A stretch of DNA of 64,000 bases, taken from positions 558,001 through 622,000 of the forward strand of contig NZ_CP040671.1 of assembly GCF_008386235.1 (NCBI RefSeq), given 5' to 3'. The notes under the pieces were generated by a model, which did not search any database, was not told the origin of the DNA, and was given only the letters and a program-made list of their open reading frames with translations. Both the position numbers and the translations under genes were made by a program. Source of the stretch: Thermosynechococcus sp. CL-1 (GTDB taxonomy: Bacteria > Cyanobacteriota > Cyanobacteriia > Thermosynechococcales > Thermosynechococcaceae). Positions 4,612 through 63,106 of this stretch are shown here, piece by piece. Each line of letters starts with the position of its first letter. Position 1 is the stretch's first letter.

Positions 4612-5876
4612 GATGGGGCAGAAAAGCGCGATCGCCAGTTCTCACTCAAGAGTTCCTGTTGCGGTACCAAGACCTGCTCCCCAGAGGTCAACCACTTCAC
4701 TTGCACGGTGCGATCTGTAGCCTCACTCTCGCCAATCACCAGACACACCGTAGCACCAACGCGATCGGCGCGCTTGACCTGTTTACCAAAGGCACTGCCG
4801 CTGAGATCCACCTCAACGGTGTAACCTTGATGCCGCAATTGCTGTGCCAAAATCAGGCCTTGGCGTTCGGCAGCTTTGCCACGGGTCACCATATAAAGGT
4901 AGGGTTGATCGCGCGGCGGCAACGGGCGATCGCGCAGGAGTAAAATCAATCGTTCCAGTCCCATCGCCCAACCAATGGCGGGGGTGGCAGGTCCCCCTAA
5001 TTCCTCGACAAGGTGATCGTAGCGCCCCCCTCCACAGACGGTTCCCTCATTGCCCAAACGCAAATCCTGAAATTCAAAGGCGGTGTGGGTATAGTAGTCG
5101 AGGCCCCGCACAAGGGCAGGATTTATCTGGTAGCGGATGCCCAGATCCTGCAAGAGGGATTGCACCTGCTCAAAATGGTTGCGCGATCGCGGACTGAGAT
5201 AATCCAACAGCCGCGGCGCTTCCTTAACAATCGCTTGGGTGTGAGGGTCTTTACTATCGAGGATGCGCAGGGGATTGCGGTGGAGGCGTTCTTGGGAATC
5301 GGGGTCTAACTCTGCCTTGTAGGGGGTGAGGTAATCCACCAAGGCCTGACGATACTCACTGCGATCCTCGCGATCGCCCACGGAGTTGAGCATCAGGGTT
5401 AACTCCTTCAATCCCAGGGCCTGCAAAATATCTAAAGCCACAGCAATGACTTCGGCATCGGCACGGGGATCGGCACTGCCTAAAACTTCCACCCCCAACT
5501 GGTGAAACTGGCGATAGCGACCGGACTGTGGCCGCTCGTAGCGAAACATGGGCCCTAGGTACCACAGGCGTTGGACGCCCCCTTGGCTGTGCAAACCATG
5601 TTCAATATAGGCGCGCACCACCCCCGCCGTGCCCTCTGGCCGCAGCGTCAGCGACCGTTGACCGCGATCGCTAAAGGTGTACATTTCCTTACTGACAATA
5701 TCGGTGGCTTCACCAATGCCCCGCTCAAACAAAGGGGTTTGCTCAAAAATGGGAGTGCAAATTTCGCGGTAGGCAGCGCGATCTAAAATCTGGCGAGCAA
5801 TGGTTTCTAAATACTGCCAATAGACCCGCTCAGCGGGCAAAATATCGCGAGTTCCCCGTGGTGCTTGCAAACCCAT
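4608..5876 (-). CDS. hisS: histidyl-tRNA synthetase
   Basis: Charges tRNA-His. Class II synthetase of 422 residues, full length for the family. Motif 2 region is MFRYERPQSGRYRQFHQ near residues 111-127, the HisRS-specific LVRGLDYYTHTAFEF is near 258-272, and motif 3 is AIGWAMGLERLIL near 300-312. The C-terminal anticodon-binding domain follows (residues about 325-415). ATG start at 5876. First gene of an overlapping hisS-chelatase-csaB string. Confidence 0.97.
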   Translation of the reverse strand: MGLQAPRGTRDILPAERVYWQYLETIARQILDRAAYREICTPIFEQTPLFERGIGEATDIVSKEMYTFSDRGQRSLTLRPEGTAGVVRAYIEHGLHSQGGVQRLWYLGPMFRYERPQSGRYRQFHQLGVEVLGSADPRADAEVIAVALDILQALGLKELTLMLNSVGDREDRSEYRQALVDYLTPYKAELDPDSQERLHRNPLRILDSKDPHTQAIVKEAPRLLDYLSPRSRNHFEQVQSLLQDLGIRYQINPALVRGLDYYTHTAFEFQDLRLGNEGTVCGGGRYDHLVEELGGPATPAIGWAMGLERLILLLRDRPLPPRDQPYLYMVTRGKAAERQGLILAQQLRHQGYTVEVDLSGSAFGKQVKRADRVGATVCLVIGESEATDRTVQVKWLTSGEQVLVPQQELLSENWRSRFSAPS

Positions 5877-6350: not shown

Positions 6351-8069
6351 TCAGGTTTTCATGCTAATTCCTTGGGCGTTAGGCGGAAAGGGGCGTTTTT
6401 GGTGTGCCAACAGGCCACTGGCAAATGAGAATGCCATTGCCGAGCGATCGCCCCCCGCTAAATCCGCAAGGGCTTGAACACGTGCCTCACCGCTTAAGTA
6501 TTGCACACGAATTACCGTTGTGGCGGCACTGGGATCAATGTCCTTTTGCACCAAATAGTGATGATCAGCCGCTGCCGCAATCAAGGATTGATGGGTAACG
6601 CACAACACCTGATGGGTTTCCCCCAATCGTCTTAAACTCTCGGCGATCGCCCCCGCCACGCGTCCGGAAACCCCAACATCAATTTCATCAAAAATTAGCG
6701 TTTTCGGTGTTTGCTGTGTCGTCAAGCAGGTCTCCAACGCCAGTGAAAATCGGCTCATTTCACCGCCAGAGGCAATCTCCCCAAGGGGTTGCAGGGGTTG
6801 GCCAGGATTGGCACTCCAGAGAAACCTAATCTCGTCACTACCGTGACTACTGGCTTCTGTGGTTGTGACCTGCACGATAAAACGGGCTTGGGGGAGTCCA
6901 AGGGGTTGAAGATGGGTCAGCAGGTCTTGTTCGAGGCGTTCTGCTGCCTTTAGTCGTAATTCGTGAAGTGCCGCACTGGCTTGTTCAAGGGTCTGCCGCA
7001 GTTGGGCAACTTCTGCTTCTAGGGACTCTTGGCTAGTAGAGGCATCCCTGAGGGCAGCTAATTCTGCTTGGATGCGATCGCGATAGGCAATGACACTGGC
7101 TAAATCAGGGCCATACTTGCGACACAGGCGTTGTAATTGGTGAATGCGCTGACCGAGGGCATCGAGTGTGGCTGGATCCGCATCGAGGCGATCGGCATAA
7201 CTGCGCAGTTGGCGGGCGGCTTCTTCGGTGTGGGCGATCGCCCCTGCCAACAATTCGCTCATCGGCTGAAGCGCTGGATCCCAGTTGGCAATGGCTTGCA
7301 CTGCCCCTTGGGCTTGGGCCAGCAACGTCACCACACTCGGTTCCCCTTCGTAGAGGAGGTGATAGGCCTGTTGGCTTTGGCTTTGCAGTTCCTGCACATG
7401 GCTGAGGCGTTGGTAGTCCTGTTGCAATTGGGTCAGTTCTTCAGGGTCGTCTAGGGCAGCCGGCAACAGTTCTTGGAGTTGAAAGTGCAGTAAGTCGAGT
7501 CGCTGGAGCCGTTGCTGTTCCTGAGCGGCAAAATCCTGCAATTCCCGTTGCCGTTGTTGCCATACTCGGTAGGCGTCTGCCACCCGCTGCCGCTGGCTCA
7601 TTAAGGCCTCGCCCCCATAGCGATCAAGCCAATCCCGCTGTTGAGAGGCACTGGCCAGTTGTCCTGCCTGTCCTTGAGCTGTCAGGCGCACAAGGTGCCG
7701 CCGCAATTCCTGAAGTTGCTGGCGATTCACTAGCACACCATTGACGCGGCTGCGACTGCGAAAGGTCTCCCCCTTGAGACTAAACTCGCGGCTACAGATC
7801 ACCTCATCCCCTTCAGCATCAATTTCTAGGGTGGCCAGCCAGTCTCTCACTGGGGGGGTCAGGGTGAAAGTGGCTTCGATACAGCCCTGCTCTGTCCCCG
7901 ATCGCAATTGCCGCGCCGAGAGCTTCCCCCCAAGGAGAGCATCAATGGCATCGAGGAGAATCGACTTGCCTGCCCCCGTTTCCCCCGTGAGGACATTCAA
8001 CCCCCGCTGAAAGGTCACCTCTAGCTCCGCAACGAGGGCAAAGTTCTGAATCCGCAGCGTTTGTAGCAT
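6351..8069 (-). CDS. recN: DNA repair protein RecN
   Basis: SMC-like ATPase that holds DNA ends during double-strand-break repair. 572 residues: N-terminal Walker A GETGAGKSILLDAI near residues 29-42, long coiled-coil arms (about 155-400), then the ABC signature IASGGEMSRFSLALE and Walker B TLIFDEIDVGVSG in the C-terminal third. Length matches the family. ATG 8069. Divergent from crtR across a 151-bp gap. Confidence 0.96.
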   Translation of the reverse strand: MLQTLRIQNFALVAELEVTFQRGLNVLTGETGAGKSILLDAIDALLGGKLSARQLRSGTEQGCIEATFTLTPPVRDWLATLEIDAEGDEVICSREFSLKGETFRSRSRVNGVLVNRQQLQELRRHLVRLTAQGQAGQLASASQQRDWLDRYGGEALMSQRQRVADAYRVWQQRQRELQDFAAQEQQRLQRLDLLHFQLQELLPAALDDPEELTQLQQDYQRLSHVQELQSQSQQAYHLLYEGEPSVVTLLAQAQGAVQAIANWDPALQPMSELLAGAIAHTEEAARQLRSYADRLDADPATLDALGQRIHQLQRLCRKYGPDLASVIAYRDRIQAELAALRDASTSQESLEAEVAQLRQTLEQASAALHELRLKAAERLEQDLLTHLQPLGLPQARFIVQVTTTEASSHGSDEIRFLWSANPGQPLQPLGEIASGGEMSRFSLALETCLTTQQTPKTLIFDEIDVGVSGRVAGAIAESLRRLGETHQVLCVTHQSLIAAAADHHYLVQKDIDPSAATTVIRVQYLSGEARVQALADLAGGDRSAMAFSFASGLLAHQKRPFPPNAQGISMKT

Positions 8070-16788: not shown

Positions 16789-17337
16789 TCACCCGAAGCG
16801 CTTACCGCGCATTTTCCAGCCCGTTAAAAACATCAGGAGCAAGACGCCACTGAGCGCCAAGATGTAGAGAGGCTTGAAGGCAACACCCAAATAGGCTCCT
16901 TCATGGATCTGGAGTAAGACAGCCAGCTGCTGTTTTGGCAAATGCAGCCACTGTTGACTCAAGTGGTAAGCAACTCCTGTGATGGCACTCACCAAAAGCG
17001 GCAGCAAGACAACAATAGCTCCATACTGATGGATGAGTCTCAGGCTGCTGCTTGGCTGAGCCAGCCGGTGGTACTGCTTGAGTCGTCTGGGATTGATTAA
17101 CCTAAAACCACTGACGGTCAGTACGACCACCCCTAAGCCCAAGCAGAGCACATAGAGCAAACTGAAGGACTCCCCCAAAAAGGCGCCCGTATGGATTGTC
17201 ATCATAAATTTGCCAAAGTCTTTGGATAGTCCTAACCAACTGCGACCCAACCGATAGGCCAAGCCTGTCCACATCGTTAACCCCAAGGGCAGCCACAGCG
17301 CGATCGCGACTTGACGATGCAGTTGACGTATTTTCAT
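16789..17337 (-). CDS. PepSY-associated-type four-helix membrane protein
   Basis: 182 residues with four transmembrane segments in two similar halves: each half has a TM helix ending in a His-containing loop (TIHTGAFLGESFSLLYVL and QIHEGAYLGVAFKPLYIL), which shows internal duplication. The histidines could ligate heme, as in membrane reductases of the PepSY_TM class linked to iron uptake. No soluble PepSY domain is seen. ATG 17337. Lies 51 bp after a PiuC-like dioxygenase gene on the same strand. Family assignment is by pattern. Confidence 0.65.
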   Translation of the reverse strand: MKIRQLHRQVAIALWLPLGLTMWTGLAYRLGRSWLGLSKDFGKFMMTIHTGAFLGESFSLLYVLCLGLGVVVLTVSGFRLINPRRLKQYHRLAQPSSSLRLIHQYGAIVVLLPLLVSAITGVAYHLSQQWLHLPKQQLAVLLQIHEGAYLGVAFKPLYILALSGVLLLMFLTGWKMRGKRFG

Positions 17338-17388
17338 TCTCGCCCGTCTCCATTCAACTCAGTAGATGACTGAAAGGAATACCTTGGC

Positions 17389-18063
17389 TTAAACATCCGC
17401 CCATTTGCGCAGTAAATTGGCGTGCACCTTGCAGAGCAGGTCAAACTCAATGGTTTTCCCCTGTTTTTCAAAAATGCTGCGGCGAACAGTATCCAGTTCA
17501 AACAGCAGTTCTCGCTCCAAGGGATCGCGAATTAAACTTTGCACCCATGTGACTGCTACAAGGCGAACACCCTGACTCACTGGTTCCACTCGATGCAAAA
17601 AGATGGCTGGATACGCAATCATTGAGCCCGCAGGCAACCTAAAGGACTGTTCGCCCAAACTGGTATCGAGAACCAAGGCTCCCCCTTCATAGGTACAAGG
17701 ATCACTCAGAAAGAGGGTGAGGGACACATCAGAGCGACTCAACTGCTCACCGCTACCCATTAGGGCATTATCCATATGGGTGCCATAGACCATGCCGGGT
17801 TCGTAGCGGCTAAAAAGGATGGGACGGATGACCTTAGGTTGTACATAGGCTTGGAAGAGATGATTTCTTGTTAAGGCTGCAAGCACGATTTCTGAAGCCA
17901 GCGCATACGCCTCACTGTCTTGCGCCAATTGTTGATTGTCTTTAACCGTTCTTGCATAGAGCCCGGCAGTCAATTTGCCATCTACAAAGACCCCTGCCTC
18001 AAGGATGGCATTTAGGCGATGCAGTTCTTCAGAGGTTAAGACTTGATGGACTTGCAGTAGCAT
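17389..18063 (-). CDS. Fe(II)/2-oxoglutarate dioxygenase, PiuC/PKHD-type
   Basis: Hydroxylase of the prolyl-4-hydroxylase-like family; PiuC/YbiX relatives are often iron-regulated and next to siderophore receptors. 224 residues, the usual length. Iron ligands H96 and D98 in YGTHMDN and H157 in IFLHRVEP; R167 in QGVRLVAVTW fits the 2-oxoglutarate salt bridge. ATG 18063. Substrate unknown. Upstream lies a transposon-end-like scar (18125-18159) and downstream the PepSY-like gene. Confidence 0.88.
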   Translation of the reverse strand: MLLQVHQVLTSEELHRLNAILEAGVFVDGKLTAGLYARTVKDNQQLAQDSEAYALASEIVLAALTRNHLFQAYVQPKVIRPILFSRYEPGMVYGTHMDNALMGSGEQLSRSDVSLTLFLSDPCTYEGGALVLDTSLGEQSFRLPAGSMIAYPAIFLHRVEPVSQGVRLVAVTWVQSLIRDPLERELLFELDTVRRSIFEKQGKTIEFDLLCKVHANLLRKWADV

Positions 18064-18124
18064 TGGCTCGCTTTCCTAGGGGCTGACCCATAAAGACAGC
18101 AACTTGGGGGGAGGAAAAACAAGG

Positions 18125-18159
18125 TTGACCTCCTCCCCGGCCTGAAGGCTGTAGATTCC
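18125..18159 (-). mobile_element. relic resembling an IS200/IS605-type (TnpB) right end
   Basis: On the minus strand the segment begins GGAATCTACAGCC, folds through a GCC-TTCA-GGC hairpin, and ends CGGGGAGGAGGTCAA. This layout (gaatc, GC hairpin, ggggaggatgtcaa-like tail) is what I know from right ends of IS200/IS605 and IS607 elements carrying tnpB, which also form the 3' end of the guide RNA. No transposase or tnpB remains nearby, so it would be a solo end. Resemblance is from memory, not a search. Confidence 0.4.
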
Positions 18160-18176
18160 TTCTTCCTGCTTTAACT

Positions 18177-18458
18177 TTACGAATGGGAATAGGACCACCA
18201 GCGTCGGCGTCGATAACGACCCTCTCCACCTTCCTCGCCTTCGCCCCATTCACCTCCTTCGGCCATCAGGTAAATGCTGGAGCCAATGGTTCGGTTTTTC
18301 GTAGCAGCGACAGCAGAAGCACTGGCAGCCGGCGCTGGGAACTCATAGGACACCCCTCCCTCTTCAGTACCGGCACTGGGATTGCTGCAACTCGCCATTG
18401 TGCTTGCCAAGCCTAGGGAGACAAATAGGCAGAGGGCTTTTGAACCGTAACTATTCAT
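18177..18458 (-). CDS. small lipoprotein with acidic Gly/Glu and basic tail
   Basis: 93 residues from ATG 18458, set by AAGGAG 7 bases upstream. Signal peptide with lipobox STMASC. The mature part is Pro/Ala-rich, then a Gly-Glu run (GGEWGEGEEGGEG) followed directly by RYRRRRWWSYSHS, giving sharply opposed charges. No family recognised; Gly-Glu-rich stretches occur in some metal-uptake proteins, but that is weak. Lies between the histidine kinase gene and PiuC on the same strand. Confidence 0.6.
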   Translation of the reverse strand: MNSYGSKALCLFVSLGLASTMASCSNPSAGTEEGGVSYEFPAPAASASAVAATKNRTIGSSIYLMAEGGEWGEGEEGGEGRYRRRRWWSYSHS

Positions 18459-18536
18459 AGGTTGCTCCTTGTTCAATGGGCTTTTACCCCATGATTGTGC
18501 TCAAGAAAAGTAACAATCTAGGGAAGGTTGCTGTAC

Positions 18537-19940
18537 TTAGGAGCGGGCGGGGAGCTTGACTGTAAAGGTGGTTCCCTGATGCCGCTGACTCTGGACGTCT
18601 ACCGTGCCCCCATAGTGCTCAACAAGCGCCTTCACCACTGCTAAACCTAGCCCTGAGCCTTGGGCATGGTACAACTGTGCCTCCTGAGAACGCCAAAAGC
18701 GATCAAACACTCGGCAGATGTCTTGGGGAGGAATACCGATGCCAGTATCCTGAACCTCAACAATCGCAAACACGCCCCTTTTTCTGAGATCAATGGTTAC
18801 AGCACCATGGCTAGGGGTATAGTGAAGCGCATTATCTAAAAGATTGCTAAAAATCTCATAAATTTGTTCAGGATTGCCATAGACATAGACATTGGTATCA
18901 CAGTGATAAGTCAGATGAATCTGTTTTTTCTTAGCGCGATCGTACTGTAGCTCAACGAGTGACTCCAATAGCTCATCCAAGTCAACATTGACCCATTGAC
19001 TCTGATCAAGTTTATGATGATCCATACGCGCTAGGAGCAATAGCTGATTGATCAAGGTATTCATCTGGTAACAGGCGGATAAAATTACTTTGAATTTATT
19101 TGATTGGGATGGTTCAAGATTCTTGGAGTATTGCTCTAGCAAGGAAATCGAAGATTGAATTGCCGTTAGGGGATGTCGCAATTGATGGGAGGCATCTGCA
19201 GTGAATTGTTTTAATTGATTGAGTGAAATGAGAATCGGTTGAAGACTTTGATTAGTTAACCAAAATGCTGCCAAAAGGGTAATAATACTAATGCCGAGAA
19301 TATTCAATAGAAAGATAGATTTTAAGTATTCTAGCTCCCGATCTAACTCAGTGGTTGATTCTATGACACAGACATAGCCAATGGCTTGGCGATGAGGCTC
19401 CATTTTGTTTGCTCTGGCATATACCGGCAGAAAGAAATAGCGATATTGATCTTCTTTGACAATTGTTCCAGCGTCAGAAAGATGATTGGGTATACTCACT
19501 TGATCCATCCTTCTGCCTTCATAAACAATTAATTTCTTATCCTTGTCGTACCATTGAACACTCTGAGAAAAATGACTGGGGAAGTTTGTCATGACTTCAT
19601 AGACAGACTCAAAATAATACTTGCCCATTAATTGAGAAACTGTAATTGGTTGCAAGTCTCCTGAAACATTTTTAGGAACATACCCTTTGTATTTTGGTTC
19701 TTTCTTTAACTCTTCATACTCGTGCTGCAGGATTTCCAAGATACTTGCAGACTGGGTGCCTACTTCTTTTAGATGATCGTCGAGTTGATTGTAGCGGTGA
19801 TAAACAATCAGAGAGTAAATTGAGAATGAAGAGATAGATAAAATTCCAGTAATCACCAAAAAGTATATAAAAAATAGGCGATGCCGCAGATTACTAACTC
19901 GGCGATTCAAAGTTGGGATTAAGCCGATAGCCAAAACCAT
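18537..19940 (-). CDS. membrane sensor histidine kinase
   Basis: 467 residues from ATG 19940 (a TTG at 19952 is an alternative); both starts lie inside the upstream response-regulator gene, so the two are translationally coupled. TM helix at about 22-47, a periplasmic domain of about 160 residues, TM2 at about 209-228, then the H box ASHQLRHPLTAIQS with phospho-accepting His near 252, N box LLDNALHYTP, G1 VQDTGIGIPP, F box FDRFWRS and G2 GSGLGLAVV. The H-box Thr is replaced by His (LRHPL). The gene is AT-richer than its neighbours and has no perfect HIP1. Signal unknown; adjacency to iron genes suggests metal or redox stress. Confidence 0.92.
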   Translation of the reverse strand: MVLAIGLIPTLNRRVSNLRHRLFFIYFLVITGILSISSFSIYSLIVYHRYNQLDDHLKEVGTQSASILEILQHEYEELKKEPKYKGYVPKNVSGDLQPITVSQLMGKYYFESVYEVMTNFPSHFSQSVQWYDKDKKLIVYEGRRMDQVSIPNHLSDAGTIVKEDQYRYFFLPVYARANKMEPHRQAIGYVCVIESTTELDRELEYLKSIFLLNILGISIITLLAAFWLTNQSLQPILISLNQLKQFTADASHQLRHPLTAIQSSISLLEQYSKNLEPSQSNKFKVILSACYQMNTLINQLLLLARMDHHKLDQSQWVNVDLDELLESLVELQYDRAKKKQIHLTYHCDTNVYVYGNPEQIYEIFSNLLDNALHYTPSHGAVTIDLRKRGVFAIVEVQDTGIGIPPQDICRVFDRFWRSQEAQLYHAQGSGLGLAVVKALVEHYGGTVDVQSQRHQGTTFTVKLPARS

Positions 19941-20583
19941 AGACAGTTTCAATAAAATTAGGAGGAGCCCCGCCTGCGTTCAGTTTGTGCCGCAGTCTCT
20001 TTAAGTGTACTTTAACGGCTTCTTCCCCTGGCACTTCCTCCAATGACCACGCATGATCGATAATTGCTGAGCGGCTAAGGATGCGACTGCCGTTACGCAA
20101 CAACACCTCCAAAATGGCATACTCTTTGGGGGTCAGCTGGAGCTCTTGGTTGTTATAGGTGACTTTGGCTTTGTCTAGATATAGGGTGAGGGCGCCCCAC
20201 CTAAGGACAGAGGAAAATGGTAGCGACTGACGCCTCAGTAGGGCACGCACCCTAGCCAACAGTTCGGCCAGATCAAAGGGCTTGACTAGGTAGTCATCGG
20301 CGCCGGCATCAAGACCCATGACTTTGTCAGTACTGGTGTCTCGAGCCGTTAGGATCAAAATAGGCAGCTGGTAGGCTCTCTGGCGAAGGATTTGGCACAG
20401 TCTTAGGCCGTCCATGCGCGGTAAGCCTAGATCTAAAATCAGTAGGTCAAAGGCAGTGGCCTCTAAATACTCAAGAGCTGATTCGGCATCATGTACCACT
20501 TCAGGGGTGTAGCGCTGATGGGCCAGGGATTCGGCAATTAAGTTGGCGATGGTTTGATCGTCTTCAACAATTAAAATTTTCAT
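19894..20583 (-). CDS. OmpR/PhoB-family response regulator
   Basis: 229 residues. Receiver domain 1-120 with acidic pocket ED at residues 7-9, phospho-acceptor Asp51 in LLILDLGLPRMDG, and K in LVKPFDLAEL. The C-terminal winged-helix domain has ELQLTPKEYAILEVLLRNG and ends ETVYGFGYRLNP. Closest in style to cyanobacterial RppA/NrsR-like regulators. Overlaps its kinase. First gene of the minus-strand run toward the lipoprotein, dioxygenase and flavodoxin. Confidence 0.93.
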   Translation of the reverse strand: MKILIVEDDQTIANLIAESLAHQRYTPEVVHDAESALEYLEATAFDLLILDLGLPRMDGLRLCQILRQRAYQLPILILTARDTSTDKVMGLDAGADDYLVKPFDLAELLARVRALLRRQSLPFSSVLRWGALTLYLDKAKVTYNNQELQLTPKEYAILEVLLRNGSRILSRSAIIDHAWSLEEVPGEEAVKVHLKRLRHKLNAGGAPPNFIETVYGFGYRLNPNFESPS

Positions 20584-20633
20584 TAAGGCCGGCGGCGTGG
20601 GGACACCCCTGTGTTCGTTGCCGAGCTGTAGGA

Positions 20634-21893
20634 CTAGGTGGTGTACTCGGCATTAATTTTAACGTAATCATAGCTGAGATCACAGCCCCAAGCGACACCT
20701 CGACCACTGCCATGACCAATACTGACTTCAATCACCACCGGATGGTCGAGGGACTGCTGGCCACTGGGATCGCTACTAGCGGCGGCTTGATTGACTAAGT
20801 AGGCATTGGCAGCGGCGCGATCGAAGGGTAAGGGTTGACCGTGGCGCATCATGGCAATCCCCCCAAGGGAAATGGCCAGATTACTGGCATCAAAGGGCAC
20901 CCCAGCGCGGCCAGCAGCGGCGGCAATGCGTCCCCAGTTGGGATCCCGTCCATAGATGGCTGATTTGACGAGCATTGAACCCGCAATGGTTCTGGCCACT
21001 TGACGGGCAGCGGCATCATCACTAGCACCACTCACCTGAACTTCAATGAGACAGGTCGCCCCCTCGCCATCACGGGCGATCGCCTTCGCTAAATGGACAC
21101 AGACCGCCGTTAACATTTCCTCAAGGCGGCTGGCCGCTGCGCCCGGCTCCGTAATCGCAGGGGTACGCGATTGTCCATTGGCCAAAGCAATCACACTGTC
21201 ATTGGTGCTGGTATCACCATCAACGGTAATTTGATTGAAGGAGCGATCGCAGGCGCGTTGGAGCATCTCCTGCCACAGATGGGGCGACACAGCAGCATCG
21301 CAGGTAATAAAGGCCAGCATCGTTGCCATATTCGGGTGAATCATCCCTGACCCCTTGGCCATGCCACCAATGCGAATGGTTTGCCCCTCCCACTCGGCTT
21401 CGAGGGCAATTTGCTTGGGCACCAAGTCTGTGGTTAGAATGGCTCGGGCAGCCGCCTCTCCACCGCCATCACTCAAGTTTGCCGTTAGCGTTGGCAGCGC
21501 TTGGCGCATCTTTTCAAGGGGAATGGGTTGACCAATGACCCCCGTCGAAGCCACGAGCACCATCTCTGGACTCACCCCCAAGGCCGTTGCCACCATATCC
21601 GCTTGGGCTAAAACCGCCTGCCAGCCCTGTTCTCCCGTAGCCGCATTGGCCTGACCCGAATTACACAAAATCGCCTGCGCCGCTCCCTTCGTTTGTAACC
21701 GCTGACGACAGTAGGTGACAGGTGCCGCACACATGTGGTTCGTCGTAAATACCCCAGCGGCGATCGCCGGCACATCGGAAACAATCAAGGCCAAATCCAG
21801 TGCCCCTGAAGCTTTGAGTCCTGCCGCAATGCCCGCAGCTCGATAGCCTTTGGCGGCAGTCACACCACCCGTAATCTGTTGCCAGTGGCTCAT
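20634..21893 (-). CDS. argJ: glutamate N-acetyltransferase / amino-acid acetyltransferase ArgJ
   Basis: Bifunctional enzyme of the cyclic arginine pathway (ornithine acetyltransferase and N-acetylglutamate synthase). 419 residues, full length. Self-cleavage site is in KGSGMIHPNMATMLAFITCD, where the Thr after Ala-Met/Met-Ala becomes the nucleophile of the beta chain. Ends AEYTT, the conserved C-terminus. ATG 21893. Separate from its neighbours by about 50-80 bp. Confidence 0.96.
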   Translation of the reverse strand: MSHWQQITGGVTAAKGYRAAGIAAGLKASGALDLALIVSDVPAIAAGVFTTNHMCAAPVTYCRQRLQTKGAAQAILCNSGQANAATGEQGWQAVLAQADMVATALGVSPEMVLVASTGVIGQPIPLEKMRQALPTLTANLSDGGGEAAARAILTTDLVPKQIALEAEWEGQTIRIGGMAKGSGMIHPNMATMLAFITCDAAVSPHLWQEMLQRACDRSFNQITVDGDTSTNDSVIALANGQSRTPAITEPGAAASRLEEMLTAVCVHLAKAIARDGEGATCLIEVQVSGASDDAAARQVARTIAGSMLVKSAIYGRDPNWGRIAAAAGRAGVPFDASNLAISLGGIAMMRHGQPLPFDRAAANAYLVNQAAASSDPSGQQSLDHPVVIEVSIGHGSGRGVAWGCDLSYDYVKINAEYTT

Positions 21894-55894: not shown

Positions 55895-57178
55895 TTGCCA
55901 CAACCACTATCTGTTGCTGTCTTTATTTGCCTAGAATGGCAACCCAACGCCGGGGGACATGTCAAATGTTGGGAACGTTTTGCGGAAGCTGCCAGCCACT
56001 ACCCAGACCGCGTTGACTTGACCATTTACTTCCTTGGCGCCAAACAGCAAACCCTAGAGGTAGCAGCCAATGTTCGCTACCAATTGCTACCGCCCCAGTT
56101 CAGCACGCACTCACTGGAAATTATGCGCCAAGGGGCAGGCATGACCGATGTGGCTCCCTTTCACTGGGCATTGCGCCGTTATTTACCCCAACATCAGGTG
56201 TTTCACATTACGGATACTTTTAGCTTTGCCCAAACGGTGCGCCGCTTTTGTCGCCAGCAGCATCGTCCGCTGCTCAGTTCAATTCACACGGATTTGCCCT
56301 TATTGACCCGCACCTATTCGCGGGAAATTATTTGGCGCATGAGTGGCCGCAGTTGGGGGCGGGAGTTTTGGCGGTGGCTATGGCTGGAGAAATTACAAGT
56401 GGATCAGTGGTTTGGTTACCGAGCCGAACGGAAATTAGCGGGCTTTATGCGTGCTAGCGATCGCGTCTTGGTCTCGCGACAGCAGGATGCCGATTGGCTG
56501 CTCACGTTTTTGCCCCCTGAGCGGGTGGCGTGGTTTCAGCGGGGCATCGATCGCGATCGCTTTCATCTGCGATTTCGCAATCCCCAATGGCTACGGGAGG
56601 AGTATCACCTGCCAGAGGTGCCGATCGCGCTTTTTGTCGGTCGGGTAGATGCCAGTAAAAATGTGCTCCTGTTGGCGCAGGCAGCTCAAGTGTTAGCCAA
56701 TCAAGGAAAGGCATTCCATGTGTTGATTGTTGGCGAAGGGGCACAGGCTACCCTTGTCAAAGACCTTTTGGGCGATCGCGTCACCCTCACAGGCAAGGTA
56801 CCCCAAGAAAAATTAGGGGCAATTTATGCCAGCAGTGATCTATTCATCTTTCCCTCAGAGTCGGAAACAGGGCCCAATGTAGTGGTGGAAGCACGGGCGG
56901 CAGGATTACCCGTCGTCATTTCTGGGTTTGATGGCGGGCGCAAATATGTCCAAACCTCAGGGGAGGATGGGGTGGTGGTTTACAGTCGCGACCCCCAAGA
57001 TTGGGCAGCCGCCATTACCCTGCTGTTAGACGATGCCCCCTATCGCCAGCGGATGGGAACACGGGCACACCAGATCACCCAAGCAACGTGCCCCACGTGG
57101 CAGGACGCCTTTGAGCAGAGCATTTTGTGCCAATGGGAAGCGGTTGCCCAAGCCTACGGCTGGCCTCAAAAAGCCTGA
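55895..57178 (+). CDS. GT4-type glycosyltransferase (GT-B fold)
   Basis: 427 residues. TTG start 55895 chosen because GAGGAG lies 7 bases before it. C-terminal Rossmann domain with ALFVGRVDASKNVLLLAQA, VLIVGEGAQATLVKDLL and the nucleotide-sugar-binding SSDLFIFPSESETGPNVVVEARAAGLPVV, whose ESET-E matches the EX7E motif. N-terminal acceptor domain is cyanobacterial in style, without a TM anchor. Acceptor (glycolipid or polysaccharide) unknown. Ends 13 bp inside the convergent gene. Confidence 0.85.
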   Translation: MPQPLSVAVFICLEWQPNAGGHVKCWERFAEAASHYPDRVDLTIYFLGAKQQTLEVAANVRYQLLPPQFSTHSLEIMRQGAGMTDVAPFHWALRRYLPQHQVFHITDTFSFAQTVRRFCRQQHRPLLSSIHTDLPLLTRTYSREIIWRMSGRSWGREFWRWLWLEKLQVDQWFGYRAERKLAGFMRASDRVLVSRQQDADWLLTFLPPERVAWFQRGIDRDRFHLRFRNPQWLREEYHLPEVPIALFVGRVDASKNVLLLAQAAQVLANQGKAFHVLIVGEGAQATLVKDLLGDRVTLTGKVPQEKLGAIYASSDLFIFPSESETGPNVVVEARAAGLPVVISGFDGGRKYVQTSGEDGVVVYSRDPQDWAAAITLLLDDAPYRQRMGTRAHQITQATCPTWQDAFEQSILCQWEAVAQAYGWPQKA

Positions 57179-58395
57179 TCCTCTAGGAGAGCCTCTAAAA
57201 TCAAGGCCATATGGGTCCAGTGGGTTCCCCCCTGACAAAAGACAATGTAGGGTGGACGCAAAGGGCCATCGGCAGACAGTTCCGACGTGCTGCCGTCAAT
57301 AAACGTGCCCCCAGCCATCACTAGATCATCGGCATAGCCGGGCATGGGCGCAGGTACAGGATCAAGATAGGAACCCACCGGGGAGTAACGTTGCAACGTA
57401 CGGCAAAAGGCAATCAGCTTTTCAGGACTGCCCAATTGGATCGCTTGAATGACATCGCGGCGGGGGGCAAGGGGGGCGGGGTTGACGGGATAACCCAATT
57501 GGTCAAAGACATAGGCCAAGAGATGGGCGCACTTGAGGGCTTCGCCGACCATTTGCGGTGCTAAGAACAGCCCTTGAAAGAGCAGACGATGTTGATCAAA
57601 TGTGGCACCCCCTTCGTGGCCAATCCCCGGTGCCGTAAGGCGATAACTGGCTTGCTCAATGAGATCAGCGCGTCCTGCTAAGTAGCCCCCCGCGGTGGCG
57701 ATCGTGCCGCCGGGATTTTTAATCAGAGAACCCGCAATCAAATCAGCGCCCACATGGGGCGGTTCTTGGGTCTCGACAAATTCGCCGTAGCAATTATCCA
57801 CAAAACAAACCACATTGGGATTTTGCCCCTTGATCAGTTGGATCATTTTGCCAATGTCCTCAAGGCTGAGGCTCGGCCGCCATGTATAGCCACAGGAGCG
57901 TTGAATGAGCACCATGCGGGTTTGAGGTTGGACACAGGTGGCGATCGCCCCCCAATCGGGTTCACCCGTACTCAGGAGGGGAATCTCGCGATAGTGGATG
58001 CCAAAATCCTTGAGGGAACCTTGGCCGCGACCCCGCAGGCCAATCACCTCTTCTAGGGTGTCGTAGGGGGCACCCGCAAGGGAAATCAGTTCATCCCCAG
58101 GGCGGAGCACCCCAAATAGGGCGGTGGCGATCGCGTGGGTACCAGAAACAAATTGCACCCGCACCAAGGCCGCCTCAGCCCCCATCACCTGCGCAAAAAC
58201 GCGATCAAGCACCTCACGCCCTAGGTCCCCATGACCATAGCCCGTCATGCTACTGAAGTGATGCACCCCCAGCCGCTGCTGACGAAAAGCTCCTAAAACC
58301 CGCCGCAAGTTTTCCTTGACGCGGCCATCAATTTCGTTAAACGTTGGGGCAAGTGCCCCTTGGGCAGTAGTTAAGAGTAGATTCGTCACGCGCAA
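57166..58395 (-). CDS. methionine gamma-lyase-family (aluminium-resistance-type) PLP protein
   Basis: 409 residues, PLP-dependent fold type I. HHFSSMTGYGHGDLGREVLDRVFA, GTHAIATALFGVLRPGDEL, CFVDNCYGEFVETQEPP (Asp binding the cofactor) and Schiff-base Lys in AGSLIKNPGGTIA. Family members are annotated methionine gamma-lyase-like or aluminium resistance protein; activity unproven. Start TTG 58395 or GTG 58389, no clear ribosome site: the DNA just upstream (58396-58446) belongs in composition to the AT-rich island, so the native leader may have been replaced and the gene may be read from the island promoter. Confidence 0.85.
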   Translation of the reverse strand: MRVTNLLLTTAQGALAPTFNEIDGRVKENLRRVLGAFRQQRLGVHHFSSMTGYGHGDLGREVLDRVFAQVMGAEAALVRVQFVSGTHAIATALFGVLRPGDELISLAGAPYDTLEEVIGLRGRGQGSLKDFGIHYREIPLLSTGEPDWGAIATCVQPQTRMVLIQRSCGYTWRPSLSLEDIGKMIQLIKGQNPNVVCFVDNCYGEFVETQEPPHVGADLIAGSLIKNPGGTIATAGGYLAGRADLIEQASYRLTAPGIGHEGGATFDQHRLLFQGLFLAPQMVGEALKCAHLLAYVFDQLGYPVNPAPLAPRRDVIQAIQLGSPEKLIAFCRTLQRYSPVGSYLDPVPAPMPGYADDLVMAGGTFIDGSTSELSADGPLRPPYIVFCQGGTHWTHMALILEALLEDQAF

Positions 58396-58446
58396 AGAAG
58401 AAATCAGCTATTGATGTAAAAGAATATGCAAGGGAATCACGACTAA

Positions 58447-59700
58447 CTATGAATCCTCACTGAAAAACTCATTATCTTCTAGATTAACATCCAAGCCATC
58501 AACCAGATCATCAAGTTTGGGTTTGAAATCAAAATTGTATAAAAAGTCAATATCTAGTGATTCAAGCAAAGCACGAATGTAGATTCTCAATGAGACGTAA
58601 CCTAGAGATTCAATAAAACTAGGGATATCTAATTTAGGGATCCATTCATAGCATGAAGCATGAATATTAACCAAGAAGTGCATTATTTGCTCTAGCTGTC
58701 TTGATTCTACTGGAAGGAGCTTAGGACATTGATTTTCATCTAATGCCTGCTCAAAAAAGTTAATCATTTTTCTTTCATCAGTCTCATCAAACTTTTCTCT
58801 TGCTAAATTAGGTATTAAAGTCTTATCAAAGACTTTAATTTGAGATGAAGTCTCTTTCTTTAACTCAGTGTTGATCCAACGAGTTTGGAGGGGATCGGCT
58901 GCTGCACAAACGCAGTAGATAGGGAATAAATTGTCATTTGACCAGTTTAAAAGCCAATTTAAATTTCTGTAAGCATTCAACCTAGCCACCTTACCTAAAC
59001 GTGCAATAAGCTCAACTTCGTCAATTAGGATAACCCAACCTTTATAACCACACCAAGTTAATACATCGGACATTAGCTCACAGTAAGCACGACTATGATT
59101 TGCAATCTTAAAAACAGGTAATTTTGGAAAATCTTGGCCTCTTTTTTTATGAACTCTTTTAATCTCAGATATTGGTAATCGGCATCCAATCAAATCACCA
59201 TACAGCAACTCACTTTCTTCTTCATTAGCGTAAAAATAATTTTCAAGAACAATCAGTGGTAATTCATGGGTGTATCTATTTTGGGCATGAATATAAATAT
59301 CATTTAAATCATCTGCTCTTTTAGTATTCAACTTATGCTGAATACCAAACAGTTTAGAATCTGGAGTTCTGATAGATGAGGCCAGCTTTGCATACAAACG
59401 CAACATATGCTGACCAGATAATTCACGACTAAGAGTAACTCTACTAACGGCAAAACCCATCTCCAGAGCTTTATATTCAATATTGGTTAATTCGTGAGTT
59501 TTTCCTTGACCGTAGCCACCCCATATAAATCTACCCTTTTGTTTATTACCTACAGCTAGCTGTTCTAAATCTCGAATAATTTTTGTTGTTAGATCAGGTC
59601 TTAAATCAGGAAGTTCACGTATTGAGACTCTGGTAGGAATACCAGCACGAAGGGACTCAATAATAGCAATTGCCGTTTTTCTATCTAAATTAGTAACCAT
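58447..59700 (-). CDS. island gene C: BrxD/DUF2791-like P-loop ATPase
   Basis: 417 residues. KTAIAIIESLRAGIPTRVSI and the ATP loop WGGYGQGKTHELTNIEYKAL resemble the BREX-type ATP-binding family (DUF2791). Walker A GGYGQGKT at 61-68, Walker B VILIDEVEL with D227-E228, a sensor-like CVCAAADPLQTRW. Both Walker residues needed for hydrolysis are present. Acidic C-terminus (LDVNLEDNEFFSEDS). ATG 59700 with GAGTGAT upstream. Third gene of the AT-rich operon. Without a search the family call is tentative; another AAA+/STAND ATPase is possible. Confidence 0.72.
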   Translation of the reverse strand: MVTNLDRKTAIAIIESLRAGIPTRVSIRELPDLRPDLTTKIIRDLEQLAVGNKQKGRFIWGGYGQGKTHELTNIEYKALEMGFAVSRVTLSRELSGQHMLRLYAKLASSIRTPDSKLFGIQHKLNTKRADDLNDIYIHAQNRYTHELPLIVLENYFYANEEESELLYGDLIGCRLPISEIKRVHKKRGQDFPKLPVFKIANHSRAYCELMSDVLTWCGYKGWVILIDEVELIARLGKVARLNAYRNLNWLLNWSNDNLFPIYCVCAAADPLQTRWINTELKKETSSQIKVFDKTLIPNLAREKFDETDERKMINFFEQALDENQCPKLLPVESRQLEQIMHFLVNIHASCYEWIPKLDIPSFIESLGYVSLRIYIRALLESLDIDFLYNFDFKPKLDDLVDGLDVNLEDNEFFSEDS

Positions 59701-59741
59701 ATATCACTCAAAATCCTGTATCTCCATAAATCAATTTTTAT

Positions 59742-60980
59742 TCATAATTCACGCTTTTTTTGATCCTTTACTGCCTTTACTACTGCCTCTATTACCACTT
59801 GTTGAAGTTGAGAAAAGTTCTTTAGATAGTTGCTAGGAAAATCAAGTTGATCATCCCTTAATGAAGCTTGTTGTAAGAGGCTATAAGTTTTTTGATTAAT
59901 CTCAGGAAGATACTTGCTTTGTAATTCCTTTAGATGTTTATTAATGTCAAGCAAATCAGAAAAAGAATTAAATCTATCGCATTCCTTGAATCCATTTTGT
60001 AAACGTATCCAAAGAGCATCATAAGAACGAAAACCACGCTCATGATTTGTAACAAGATCAGAGTTGCCAGCAAAAATGAATAAGCAATATTCTAATACTT
60101 CAGTATCATCAATAAGCTGTCGAATAATTTCATAAACATCCGAAATAGCATTTTTAGTATAACTATATCTGTGAGTTTCAGGATTTTTCTCAGTTAGAAC
60201 TTCAAGATCATCCACACTAATAACTAAACCTTTATTACCTGCAAGTCTTATTAGTTGAACAAGAGAGTTAATCCAGTCTCGAGCATTAAACTTTCTAATT
60301 TCTTCAAAAAGAAGTAAGGACTTAAATTCTTTTTTTTCTTCTTTAGTAATGTCATTGGTTGCAGAAAGCCACTTCTTTGCTTTTTCTATAGCATCCTGCT
60401 GATTAGCAATCATCCTATTGTATACAACTTGATAAACAAATGACTGAAATGATGAGGTAAAATCATATTTTTTAATTATTTTGGAAATTGCTTTTTTGAT
60501 TTCACTAGTTGCAATTTGCGTATTGGGATATTGATCTCTAATCCTAGGAATGAACACTTCTGAACCATCATATTGATCATCAATAGAAAATTCCTGAGAA
60601 ACTGTGCAGCAAATTCCTCTTACAATAAGCTCCAAGTCAATTTTTTTAAGTATTGATTGATAGAAGTCAACTAAGTTGTTTGGCCGGAAGTTCTTAGCAG
60701 ATAAATAAACAGTTACATAGCCAGATGACTTTGCATCAAGCATAATCGAACGAATCAAATGGGTTTTCCCTGTTCCTTTATCCCCAACTAAAATTTTGAC
60801 TTTACTGCCACCATTTGCAATAAAATAATCAAGTTGATATTTCTTAAAAAAATCAAGCCATATTTCTCGACCAACGGTCATTTTTTGAAGCAACTCTTCA
60901 GATTCAGGTGGTTGTCCATTACTTAGTAATTCAATATCATTGCGATTAATATTCACCTTGCCAAAACTCCAAATAATCAA
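59742..60980 (-). CDS. island gene B: second P-loop ATPase, BREX-type-like
   Basis: 412 residues from TTG 60980 (GTG 60956 is an alternative). Walker A GDKGTGKT at 66-73; Walker B VISVDDLEV with D257-D258-L-E260, that is, DD rather than the DE of its partner; sensor segment FIFAGNSDLV. Between them lies a Lys/Glu-rich helical insert (190-235). The frame of a large alpha/beta ATPase with a helical lid is clear, close family is not. Lies 5 bp after gene A and 41 bp before gene C. Strong AT bias and no HIP1, unlike the surrounding genome. Confidence 0.7.
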   Translation of the reverse strand: MIIWSFGKVNINRNDIELLSNGQPPESEELLQKMTVGREIWLDFFKKYQLDYFIANGGSKVKILVGDKGTGKTHLIRSIMLDAKSSGYVTVYLSAKNFRPNNLVDFYQSILKKIDLELIVRGICCTVSQEFSIDDQYDGSEVFIPRIRDQYPNTQIATSEIKKAISKIIKKYDFTSSFQSFVYQVVYNRMIANQQDAIEKAKKWLSATNDITKEEKKEFKSLLLFEEIRKFNARDWINSLVQLIRLAGNKGLVISVDDLEVLTEKNPETHRYSYTKNAISDVYEIIRQLIDDTEVLEYCLFIFAGNSDLVTNHERGFRSYDALWIRLQNGFKECDRFNSFSDLLDINKHLKELQSKYLPEINQKTYSLLQQASLRDDQLDFPSNYLKNFSQLQQVVIEAVVKAVKDQKKREL

Positions 60981-60985
60981 TCTAG

Positions 60986-61753
60986 TTATGCTCTATATTC
61001 TGACTTCTTGTGAATTGCTAAGATACCAAAAGACCTAGTATTATTTGGTGATTGAAATCTATAATTATTTTTTGAATCTCTATGAGAAGAAAATATAAAA
61101 ATATAATCCTTATATTCTATGCTATTTTTTCTCAAAAGCTTTGATAAGTCGACCAAAAACATTGATTCAGTATATTTCTCTTTTGCTATTGACTTGATTG
61201 TCCATAGATTATAAATCTCTCTGATTAAAATGTTTCTACCCCATCTTACTTTCTGATCACTATTAAACCCAACGATGTATTGATAAGCGGTAAGTAGTTC
61301 TTGACAAATTTCATCTTCATCGAATCGCCTTGACCAAATGGCATTATATTTTTCACTAACCCATCGTACTATGCTTTCTGGATTTAAGTTGTAGTTTTTC
61401 TCTCGTATTTTATCGCCTACGATTTTTGCCTGCTTCTTTTTTATATTAAAGATTAGTCTGTAGGGAAAAATTTCGTATACAGGGAAGCGACCCAAAAATC
61501 CAATATTATGTTCTCCGAACAGTCTTTCTATAATAGCTGCATACTCTGGGCTTATAAATAATTCTTCTTTCTGCTTTACATTGTTTTCTAGTTCTTCTAG
61601 GTGATCTTTTATCTTTGAAAAGCTACTGCATATAGTTTCATGACAAGAATTAAAATCATGTATATTCCATTCTTTAGCTAGATTGACTAATTCTTCGTAA
61701 CGCTTTTGAAGAACTTTAATATCTCTTTTAATATCTAGTTTAGATTCTAACAT
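60986..61753 (-). CDS. island gene A: coiled-coil protein of no recognised family
   Basis: 255 residues. Residues 1-70 are a charged coiled coil (LDIKRDIKVLQKRYEELVNLAKEW and KIKDHLEELENNVKQKEEL). Then an alpha/beta-looking domain: FLGRFPVYEIFPYRLIFNIKKKQAKIVGDK, ESIVRWVSEKYNAIW and ELLTAYQYIVGF, ending in a beta-rich, basic segment (YKDYIFIFSSHRDSKNNYRF). No catalytic motif, membrane segment or signal peptide. ATG 61753 with AAGGAAG close before it. First in the operon, so its product probably works with the two ATPases, perhaps as adaptor or sensor. Confidence 0.65.
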   Translation of the reverse strand: MLESKLDIKRDIKVLQKRYEELVNLAKEWNIHDFNSCHETICSSFSKIKDHLEELENNVKQKEELFISPEYAAIIERLFGEHNIGFLGRFPVYEIFPYRLIFNIKKKQAKIVGDKIREKNYNLNPESIVRWVSEKYNAIWSRRFDEDEICQELLTAYQYIVGFNSDQKVRWGRNILIREIYNLWTIKSIAKEKYTESMFLVDLSKLLRKNSIEYKDYIFIFSSHRDSKNNYRFQSPNNTRSFGILAIHKKSEYRA

Positions 61754-61792
61754 TCTTCCTTGATAACAGCAAGATCCGATTCCTTATCAATC

Positions 61793-61823
61793 ATTATAGC
61801 ACAAAAATCTTGTACTTAATCAA
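61793..61823 (-). promoter_or_regulatory. promoter of the AT-rich three-gene operon
   Basis: On the minus strand TTGATT (61818-61823), 19-bp spacer, then TGC-TATAAT with -10 at 61793-61798, an extended -10 form that tolerates the long spacer. About 40 bp before gene A. In such AT-rich DNA a -35 match is weak evidence; the exact TATAAT with TGn is the stronger part. Confidence 0.5.
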
Positions 61824-61852
61824 ATTTAATATGGTATTCTCCATAAAAATTC

Positions 61853-61871
61853 TTCAATAAATATTATTGAA
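61853..61871. repeat. perfect inverted repeat between cruG and the island operon
   Basis: TTCAATAAATATTATTGAA: 8-bp perfect arms around ATA. It starts 2 bp after the cruG stop and on that strand is followed by GAATTTTTATGG, so it could be an AT-only terminator for cruG. Its place 30 bp upstream of the island promoter also allows an operator for the operon. Confidence 0.55.
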
Positions 61872-61873
61872 TA

Positions 61874-63106
61874 TTACTGATTATTTCTTTTGCTATCACT
61901 TTCAAAATTGTGAGTCTTGGCAGGATAAATGCGTCCTCGCCACTGCTTGGGACGTTGCCAAGAGGAGAGGGTAAGCCGCAGAGCCGCGAGGGGATCCGCA
62001 AGGGGGGACAGCCAAAAGAGCCAACGTCCTTGACCCACTTGCCAATCGTAGGCGGGGGCAATGGCCAGTGTCATGCCGCAGCGGATCAGCACCAGTAGGC
62101 CATTGAGCAGTGTCGCCATTTCTAAAGGAAGGGTGGGAGTAGTCACTGCCAGTGCCATCAAGCCCAAAACCAACAGGGGCAACGGTAATCCCTGTACTGC
62201 CCAGAGGAAATAGGCATCGCCCCAGAGCTGGGCGGCTGGGGTGGCATCCTTGAGATCCAGCGATCGCCCCCATTCTCGCCATGTTTCCGCCATACCCTCA
62301 TACATCCGCACCTTAAGCACCTTGGAGCCATCGCGAAAGGCCACCCGTGCCCCCGTAGTCGCTATGGCTCGCACCAGTGTTACATCATCACAAAAGGAGG
62401 AAGCGGCAACTTGGTAGCCGCCCATTGCCTCGAGGCGCGATCGCCGAATGAGTAGGCACTGACCATTGGCCAGAATCCGCTCCGGCTGAGTTTCCACAGC
62501 GCGCGCTGCGCCAAAGCGGTAGATCAGCGTCAAGAGCAGCGCCGGTTGCAGCCACCATTCACCGCCGGTCTTGAGGATAAAGCGAGGCGAGAGAGAAATC
62601 AGATCCAGTTGCTCCTGCTCTGCTGTCGCCAAAAGACTAGCCACAAGGCCGGGTTGCGGTTGGGTATCCGCATCAATGCCCAAAATCCACTCACTCTCAG
62701 GATGGGCACGACAAAAGCCTGTATGTAAGGCCCAAGGCCGCCCCACCCACCCCGGCGGTAAGGGGGGATCAAACTCCAGTCGCAGACGCGGATCGCGGTG
62801 TTGCGCTGCCTGCACAATCTCAGCCGTGCCATCTTGGGAATGACTATCAACAATCAGAATTTCCCGCACCTCGTAGCCTTGACGCATTAAGCCCTCTAAA
62901 CAGGGTTGCAACCGCTGTGCCTCATTGAGGGTGGGGACAACAATTGAGACTTTGGCTAAGTTCTCTGGGCGGGAGGGCTGAGGGGTTAAGGGAGTCGGTC
63001 GTCGCCAACCCGATCCTAAACGGGCGATTAAAACAGCTATCCAAGGTGTCTGGGCCAGGATCGCGGCGCTGGCGATCGCTGCTATGCCAACTGCAACGGT
63101 ACTCAA
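61874..63106 (-). CDS. cruG: carotenoid glycosyltransferase CruG
   Basis: GT2 enzyme adding the sugar to the 2'-hydroxyl in myxol glycoside (myxoxanthophyll) synthesis. 410 residues: N-terminal [33 protein letters not shown], acceptor-side [11 protein letters not shown] (DxD) and [13 protein letters not shown], then three C-terminal TMs. TTG start 63106 overlaps the minE stop by 4 bp, GAGG upstream. The last 13 residues ([12 protein letters not shown]) come from AT-rich codons unlike the rest, as if the natural 3' end had been replaced when the island inserted. Confidence 0.88.

Follow-up and report, generated by a model that had tools for sequence, protein, structure and literature searches.

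A conserved gene trio with two distinct BrxC/BrxD-family ATPases that entered a cyanobacterial chromosome horizontally and is often linked to helicases in its relatives

A cassette of three AT-rich genes lies between two core genes of a cyanobacterial chromosome and raises the question of whether these genes form a system of their own and, if so, what such a system would do. The cassette is located in the window, by which we refer to the whole 64-kb stretch of DNA analyzed here, and the genome of its host is complete (2.65 Mb). A sequence-only reading had proposed that the three genes, termed A, B, and C below, constitute a compact three-part conflict system composed of a coiled-coil protein and two unlike ATPases of the BREX type. 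In agreement with its description of the locus, the three open reading frames are all on the minus strand and are separated by intergenic gaps of 5 and 41 bp as annotated, and the neighbors that it had called cruG and a gamma-lyase-family gene match the Pfam families glycosyl transferase family 2 and Met_gamma_lyase, respectively (Table 1). Based on the aligned starts of homologues, GTG 60956 is a more likely start of B than TTG 60980, which results in an A-B gap of approximately 29 bp. An AAGGA-like ribosome site is present beside the ATG of gene A, and an Rfam search of the cassette locus gave no match. The cassette had also been credited with its own extended -10 promoter. The element itself is a perfect match, but a consensus promoter scan detected no significant promoter excess, so that TGCTATAAT constitutes weak promoter evidence.

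Table 1. Features of the cassette locus and its flanks (positions in the window)
Feature	Positions	Strand	Remarks
Gene A	60986-61753	-	255 aa
Gene B	59742-60980	-	412 aa; likely start GTG 60956
Gene C	58447-59700	-	417 aa; second PF10923 ATPase
Core gene, Met_gamma_lyase family (PF06838)	57166-58395	-	flank; Pfam match; in 11/11 genus genomes
Core gene, glycosyl transferase family 2 (cruG)	61874-63106	-	flank; in 11/11 genus genomes
Extended -10 element TGCTATAAT	61793-61801	-	about 40 bp upstream of A; perfect match
Acquired block	58391-61910 (approx.)		holds A, B, C and nothing else

The cassette reached the chromosome of the window horizontally. Its GC content is 0.326 compared to 0.540 in the rest of the window, its GC3 is 0.22-0.26 compared to about 0.57, and none of the 107 copies of HIP1 in the window falls between positions 58134 and 62260, which bears out both the strong AT-richness and the lack of HIP1 reported earlier. 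In other hosts, the GC content of the cassette is near that of its surroundings, and the copy in the window thus looks recently acquired. Gene C is present in 1 of 11 genomes of the genus. In eight relatives the flanking core genes are joined directly by a spacer of 43-97 bp, indicating that the acquired block consists of A, B, and C only. Neither a target-site duplication nor an integrase or recombinase was found at the insertion. Gene A had no match in viral contigs and none on plasmids, and gene C had no match in viral contigs or phages; matches of gene C to plasmids were partial and apparently to SngB-like ATPases. On the basis of these searches, a phage or plasmid origin was rejected. The window contains a second HIP1-free gap (17308-21075), in which GC content falls to 0.39 at 19-20 kb and which includes genes for a sensor kinase (18537-19952) and a response regulator (19894-20583), perhaps as part of another acquired block.

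Both ATPases pass the curated cut-off of the Pfam family PF10923 (BrxC_BrxD; 22.2 bits), B with 97.7 bits (E 9.4e-28) and C with 73.2 bits (E 2.6e-20). Known members of this superfamily work in BREX and Shango. Compared as profiles, B and C are homologous (hhalign probability 99.1, E 1.1e-18) and clearly different from each other, and the earlier designation as unlike ATPases was thus appropriate: they are two distinct, ancient PF10923 paralogues. The Walker motifs are intact, as had been stated, with Walker A (GxxxxGK[ST]) preserved in 80/80 full-length sequences of B and 77/82 of C, and Walker B reading as an invariant DE in C and as an invariant D followed by D, N, or Q in B. Conserved features of gene C are an ESLRAGxPTR N terminus, the Walker A sequence GxYGQGKTH, and the Walker B sequence VILIDEVEL. 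A predicted model of B (pLDDT 93.8) was closest to ORC2 of A. pernix (1w5t; VIA Z 14.4, rmsd 4.3 over 239 residues) and gave a VIA Z of 11.0 with BrxC. Structure prediction shows B folding as an ORC/Cdc6-type AAA+ ATPase, and C is probably of the same type by homology to the modeled B. ORC/Cdc6-type ATPases form ATP-dependent assemblies on DNA and load or position other machines. There was a weak NCBIfam match between B and DS-41 of DefensePredictor (30.8 bits, cut-off 370). A divergent trio from another cyanobacterium (L155:9034-12136) encodes a B of 318 aa that has apparently lost the N-terminal P-loop region.

Protein A had been introduced as a coiled-coil protein of 255 residues without a recognized family, and this remains an accurate account. 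We found no family for A in Pfam or any other library searched, either with A by itself or across 54 members. A MukE-like match in PADLOC was weak (E 0.03), and kinship with MukE/JetB was rejected because the match occurred in only 1 of the 54 members. One member matched PbeC (E 0.0026), which we treated as coiled-coil noise given that PbeC is an ABC ATPase; matches to HBL and to designed coiled coils were discarded as low-complexity helix matches. An AlphaFold2 model of A (pLDDT 92.8) is composed of a long helical hairpin (residues 1-66), a small middle beta domain, and a C-terminal domain (approximately 143-253) whose topology is that of a winged helix. The C-terminal domain resembles winged-helix regions of ORC1, Cdc6, and condensin weakly (VIA Z 6.5-6.8), and Foldseek returned no match of A to the PDB or to viral models with an E value of 0.001 or lower. 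A represents an orphan family that, judging from the model, combines a coiled coil with a probable winged-helix domain. Family A has no model in Pfam or PADLOC and thus offers a new marker by which such systems can be found.

When the C alignment was run against 84,980 species genomes, at least 117 relatives were confirmed, a lower bound for a scan seeded by two short patterns, and 80 of them were retrieved. A, B, and C are present in this order and on the same strand in 75 of the 76 loci with a sufficiently long contig, the exception being L078, which has C only. The survey of gene neighborhoods called for earlier thus identifies a genuine three-gene unit that recurs together. Its hosts belong to at least eight phyla (Cyanobacteriota, Bacillota, Atribacterota, Coprothermobacterota, Cloacimonadota, Chloroflexota, Actinomycetota, and a Kazan-type candidate phylum), so that the trio is not a chance feature. 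Among 386 cyanobacterial genomes surveyed, confident A matches share genomes with B-C pairs, A and C co-occur in the same genomes, and two more genomes have B-C pairs found via PF10923. In a maximum-likelihood tree, which under-represents true BrxD of phyla other than cyanobacteria, the C proteins all group together, separately from the B proteins of the main module, and both groups are apart from SngB-like proteins and BrxD; the exception is a remote version of the trio (L153/L154), in which B is nearer the SngB group. The trees of B and C are broadly congruent, and in both the window copies are sister to the same Gloeomargaritales copy. A, B, and C are all under purifying selection, with dN/dS below 1 in every pair compared and mostly 0.05-0.3. 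Conserved gene order, congruent trees, and purifying selection together argue for a real module and not a remnant.

We compared this module to known systems. PglZ (PF08665) is missing from the complete host genome, with control genomes positive, and B and C score 51-60 bits against the NCBIfam BrxD model (cut-off 350). These results exclude membership in BREX and extend to the whole genome the earlier remark on PglZ, which was made together with those on a methylase and a Lon-like partner, none of which is present at the locus. The trio resembles the BrxD-BrxHI pair of BREX type 2 in its BrxD-like ATPase of the ORC/Cdc6 clade of AAA+ proteins and in being helicase-linked in some lineages, but the window locus lacks BrxC, a methylase, and PglW as well as PglZ. 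Shango, consisting of SngA (TerB), the ATPase SngB, and the helicase SngC, likewise has a PF10923 BrxD-like AAA+ ATPase. This ATPase is coupled to an SF2 helicase, and the remote version L153 also has an SngC/BrxHI-like helicase. By contrast, Shango has one ATPase and the trio two, A is not a TerB protein, and the trio of the window has no adjacent helicase. B and C score about 43-49 bits against SngB, compared to 595 for a true SngB. The best SngC match in the host genome reached 75 bits, compared to 855 for a true SngC, and such matches were to general helicases only. There is no TerB-domain SngA beside the ATPases, given that the block contains A, B, and C and that A has no Pfam TerB match, and no SngC helicase is present in the acquired block. 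With neither a TerB protein nor SngC, and with ATPases outside the SngB clade, the window locus is not a Shango locus. Elsewhere in the host genome (approximately 1616006-1619593), an open frame of 1917 aa has helicase matches to the SngC model, and its size would suit a large defense helicase such as DruE. Many Nostocales-like cyanobacteria, among them L156 and L158, have a conserved operon in which true SngB and SngC follow a coiled-coil membrane protein that is weakly SngA-like; this may be a chromosomal form of Shango.

SspC-SspB combines an ORC/Cdc6-type ATPase with a separate winged-helix recognition subunit (PMC10853773). The trio may share this plan, with A as the candidate DNA-recognition subunit, but it has two ATPases and no sulfur-modification genes, and A is not recognized as SspB-like. 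The PbeABCD system contains the ABC ATPase PbeC and is otherwise unrelated to the trio (PMC10853773); PbeA is the best PADLOC match of the trio-linked helicase of Lachnospiraceae, a likeness confined to the helicase domain. Searches of Pfam, PADLOC, NCBIfam, and PHROGs did not match the trio to any described system, and the literature searched, which took in a minority of subscription papers, contained no description of a PF10923 trio with two ATPases. A-B-C is thus apparently an undescribed unit, and the match to a known system that would have spoken against its novelty did not emerge.

In several lineages the trio is accompanied by a DNA motor. An XPB/ResIII-type SF2 helicase adjoins it in 33 loci (a Lachnospiraceae branch and two Actinomycetota), mostly divergent from A; in L079 and L089 it is co-directional and upstream, and in L080, L096, and L097 it lies downstream of C. 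The presence of this helicase in three different arrangements argues for a functional linkage. Genes outside the four-gene unit of trio and helicase differ between most species, and the unit thus appears to move as a whole. In L023, L034, and L045 the trio has an SNF2 helicase as a direct or close neighbor, in L084 an SF1 helicase is located downstream of it, and a true BrxL directly follows C in L048, L049, L090, and L092, with a RecQ-like helicase after BrxL in L090. The remote cyanobacterial version L153 encodes A', B', and C' together with a BrxHI/SngC-like helicase (330 bits to BrxHI) in one operon. No helicase or BrxL is adjacent at the window locus, nor in most cyanobacterial and several Bacillota copies. 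Among 123 proteins flanking isolated copies, PADLOC identified the SNF2 helicases, methyltransferases, one BrxL, and one CRISPR locus, but few other defense genes; flanking genes in the isolated clade are mostly ordinary and do not form a clear defense-island setting. In three related cyanobacterial loci (L018, L020, and L021), a divergent protein with a GIY-YIG-like start and no Pfam match at E 1e-4 is encoded upstream of A.

These associations modify the picture of a compact three-part system: stand-alone trios exist, but large branches have the trio linked to a helicase or BrxL, and together with the L153 operon these links indicate that A, B, and C may be the core of a more extensive machine with an exchangeable motor. 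With moderate confidence, and by analogy, we favor the interpretation that the trio is an ORC-like ATPase module acting as loader or sensor in a genome defense of the Shango/BREX-2 type, with exchangeable helicases. A, B, and C would form one complex of two ORC/Cdc6-type ATPases and a coiled-coil, probably DNA-binding A. B and C would bind ATP and assemble on DNA that A helps to recognize, as in ORC, BrxD-BrxHI, and SngB-SngC, and the assembled ATPases would load or activate a helicase or DNA translocase, so that incoming DNA is blocked or processed. A comparable role as loader of BrxHI has been proposed for BrxD (PMC12839542). Given its invariant Walker B DE, C would probably be the main hydrolase, and B, in which the second Walker B residue varies, would bind ATP in a more regulatory capacity. 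The motor would be encoded next door in many lineages (an XPB/ResIII-type, SNF2, SF1, or BrxHI/SngC-like helicase, or BrxL); in the window host it could be resident and act in trans, or none might be needed. If this is true, ATPases of the BrxD/SngB type occur in the form of a conserved core of two ATPases that can be combined with many DNA motors, which bears on the roles of BrxD in BREX type 2 and SngB in Shango. The compact trio (approximately 3.3 kb, three genes, probably thermophilic source) would be convenient for structural work.

A role in defense is likely in view of family ties, sporadic horizontal spread, adjacency to BrxL and helicases, and frequent decay. Of the conflict system suggested by the sequence-only reading, what stands is a real, recurring module of a defense-related superfamily; flanks in the isolated clade are mostly ordinary, and we infer its defense role. 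The proposal of a three-part conflict system is partly supported; the trio is better described as a conserved core of twin ATPases that is often accompanied by a helicase. Arguing against the preferred loader or sensor module are the lack of a partner helicase at the window locus and near most cyanobacterial copies, the mostly ordinary surroundings of the isolated clade, the existence of syntenic, slowly changing copies (see below), and the weak winged-helix match of A at Z below 7. It appears unlikely to us that A-B-C is instead a self-sufficient three-component defense in which A senses, B and C act, and helicases elsewhere are add-ons. Many intact stand-alone copies in cyanobacteria, Bacillota, and Atribacterota would accord with this, as would purifying selection and the horizontal arrival of exactly these three genes, but none of the three proteins contains a recognizable effector, and the link with helicases or BrxL in other branches points to a need for a motor. 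Similarly improbable in our estimate is a complete, minimal immune system in the form of a bacterial "ORC", a hetero-oligomer in which two ATPases join a single DNA-recognition subunit. It would mark or block foreign DNA without having its own nuclease, helicase, or methylase, and in other lineages it would have repeatedly recruited different motors.

The sequence-only reading had also considered that the locus might be a remnant, should homologues always occur with a helicase/methylase module that is missing here. Many intact stand-alone trios in cyanobacteria and Bacillota show that they do not, and an origin from a larger BREX- or Shango-like locus by loss of the helicase is now very improbable and largely refuted. 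Helicase-linked relatives do exist, and in one pair of loci with shared flanks, L058 has the trio and the helicase whereas in L072 the helicase is missing and A is broken. But A, B, and C are all intact in the window, the acquired block contains nothing else, and stand-alone trios form a clade across several phyla that is under purifying selection. Possible, yet doubtful, is an accessory role in DNA maintenance (repair, replication restart, or recombination), with the trio loading a resident SNF2-type helicase in the manner of ORC. The ORC/Cdc6 fold predicted for B would suit such a role, and so would an SNF2 helicase that belongs to the core of the genus (11/11 genomes) and shares 42% identity with the trio-linked one; as a matter of speculation, this helicase is a conceivable partner in trans under the preferred reading also. 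Further in its favor are the non-defense neighbors of the isolated clade and the retention of syntenic, slowly changing copies in genomes of Phormidesmis and of Gloeomargaritales-like hosts, a pattern less expected of defense genes. DNA maintenance is difficult to reconcile with the absence of the trio from 10/11 genomes of the genus and from approximately 98% of sampled cyanobacteria, with the work of known superfamily members in BREX and Shango and the adjacency of BrxL, and with repeated gene decay (L032, L041, L072, L154).

In one of the decayed loci, an ISL3-type-transposase-like gene (L041:5294-6565) lies inside A and splits it into 4614-5339 and 6611-6802. At another locus (L044:3874-10509), four co-directional genes, one of them Hsp70-type-like, directly follow the trio, and C is split there.
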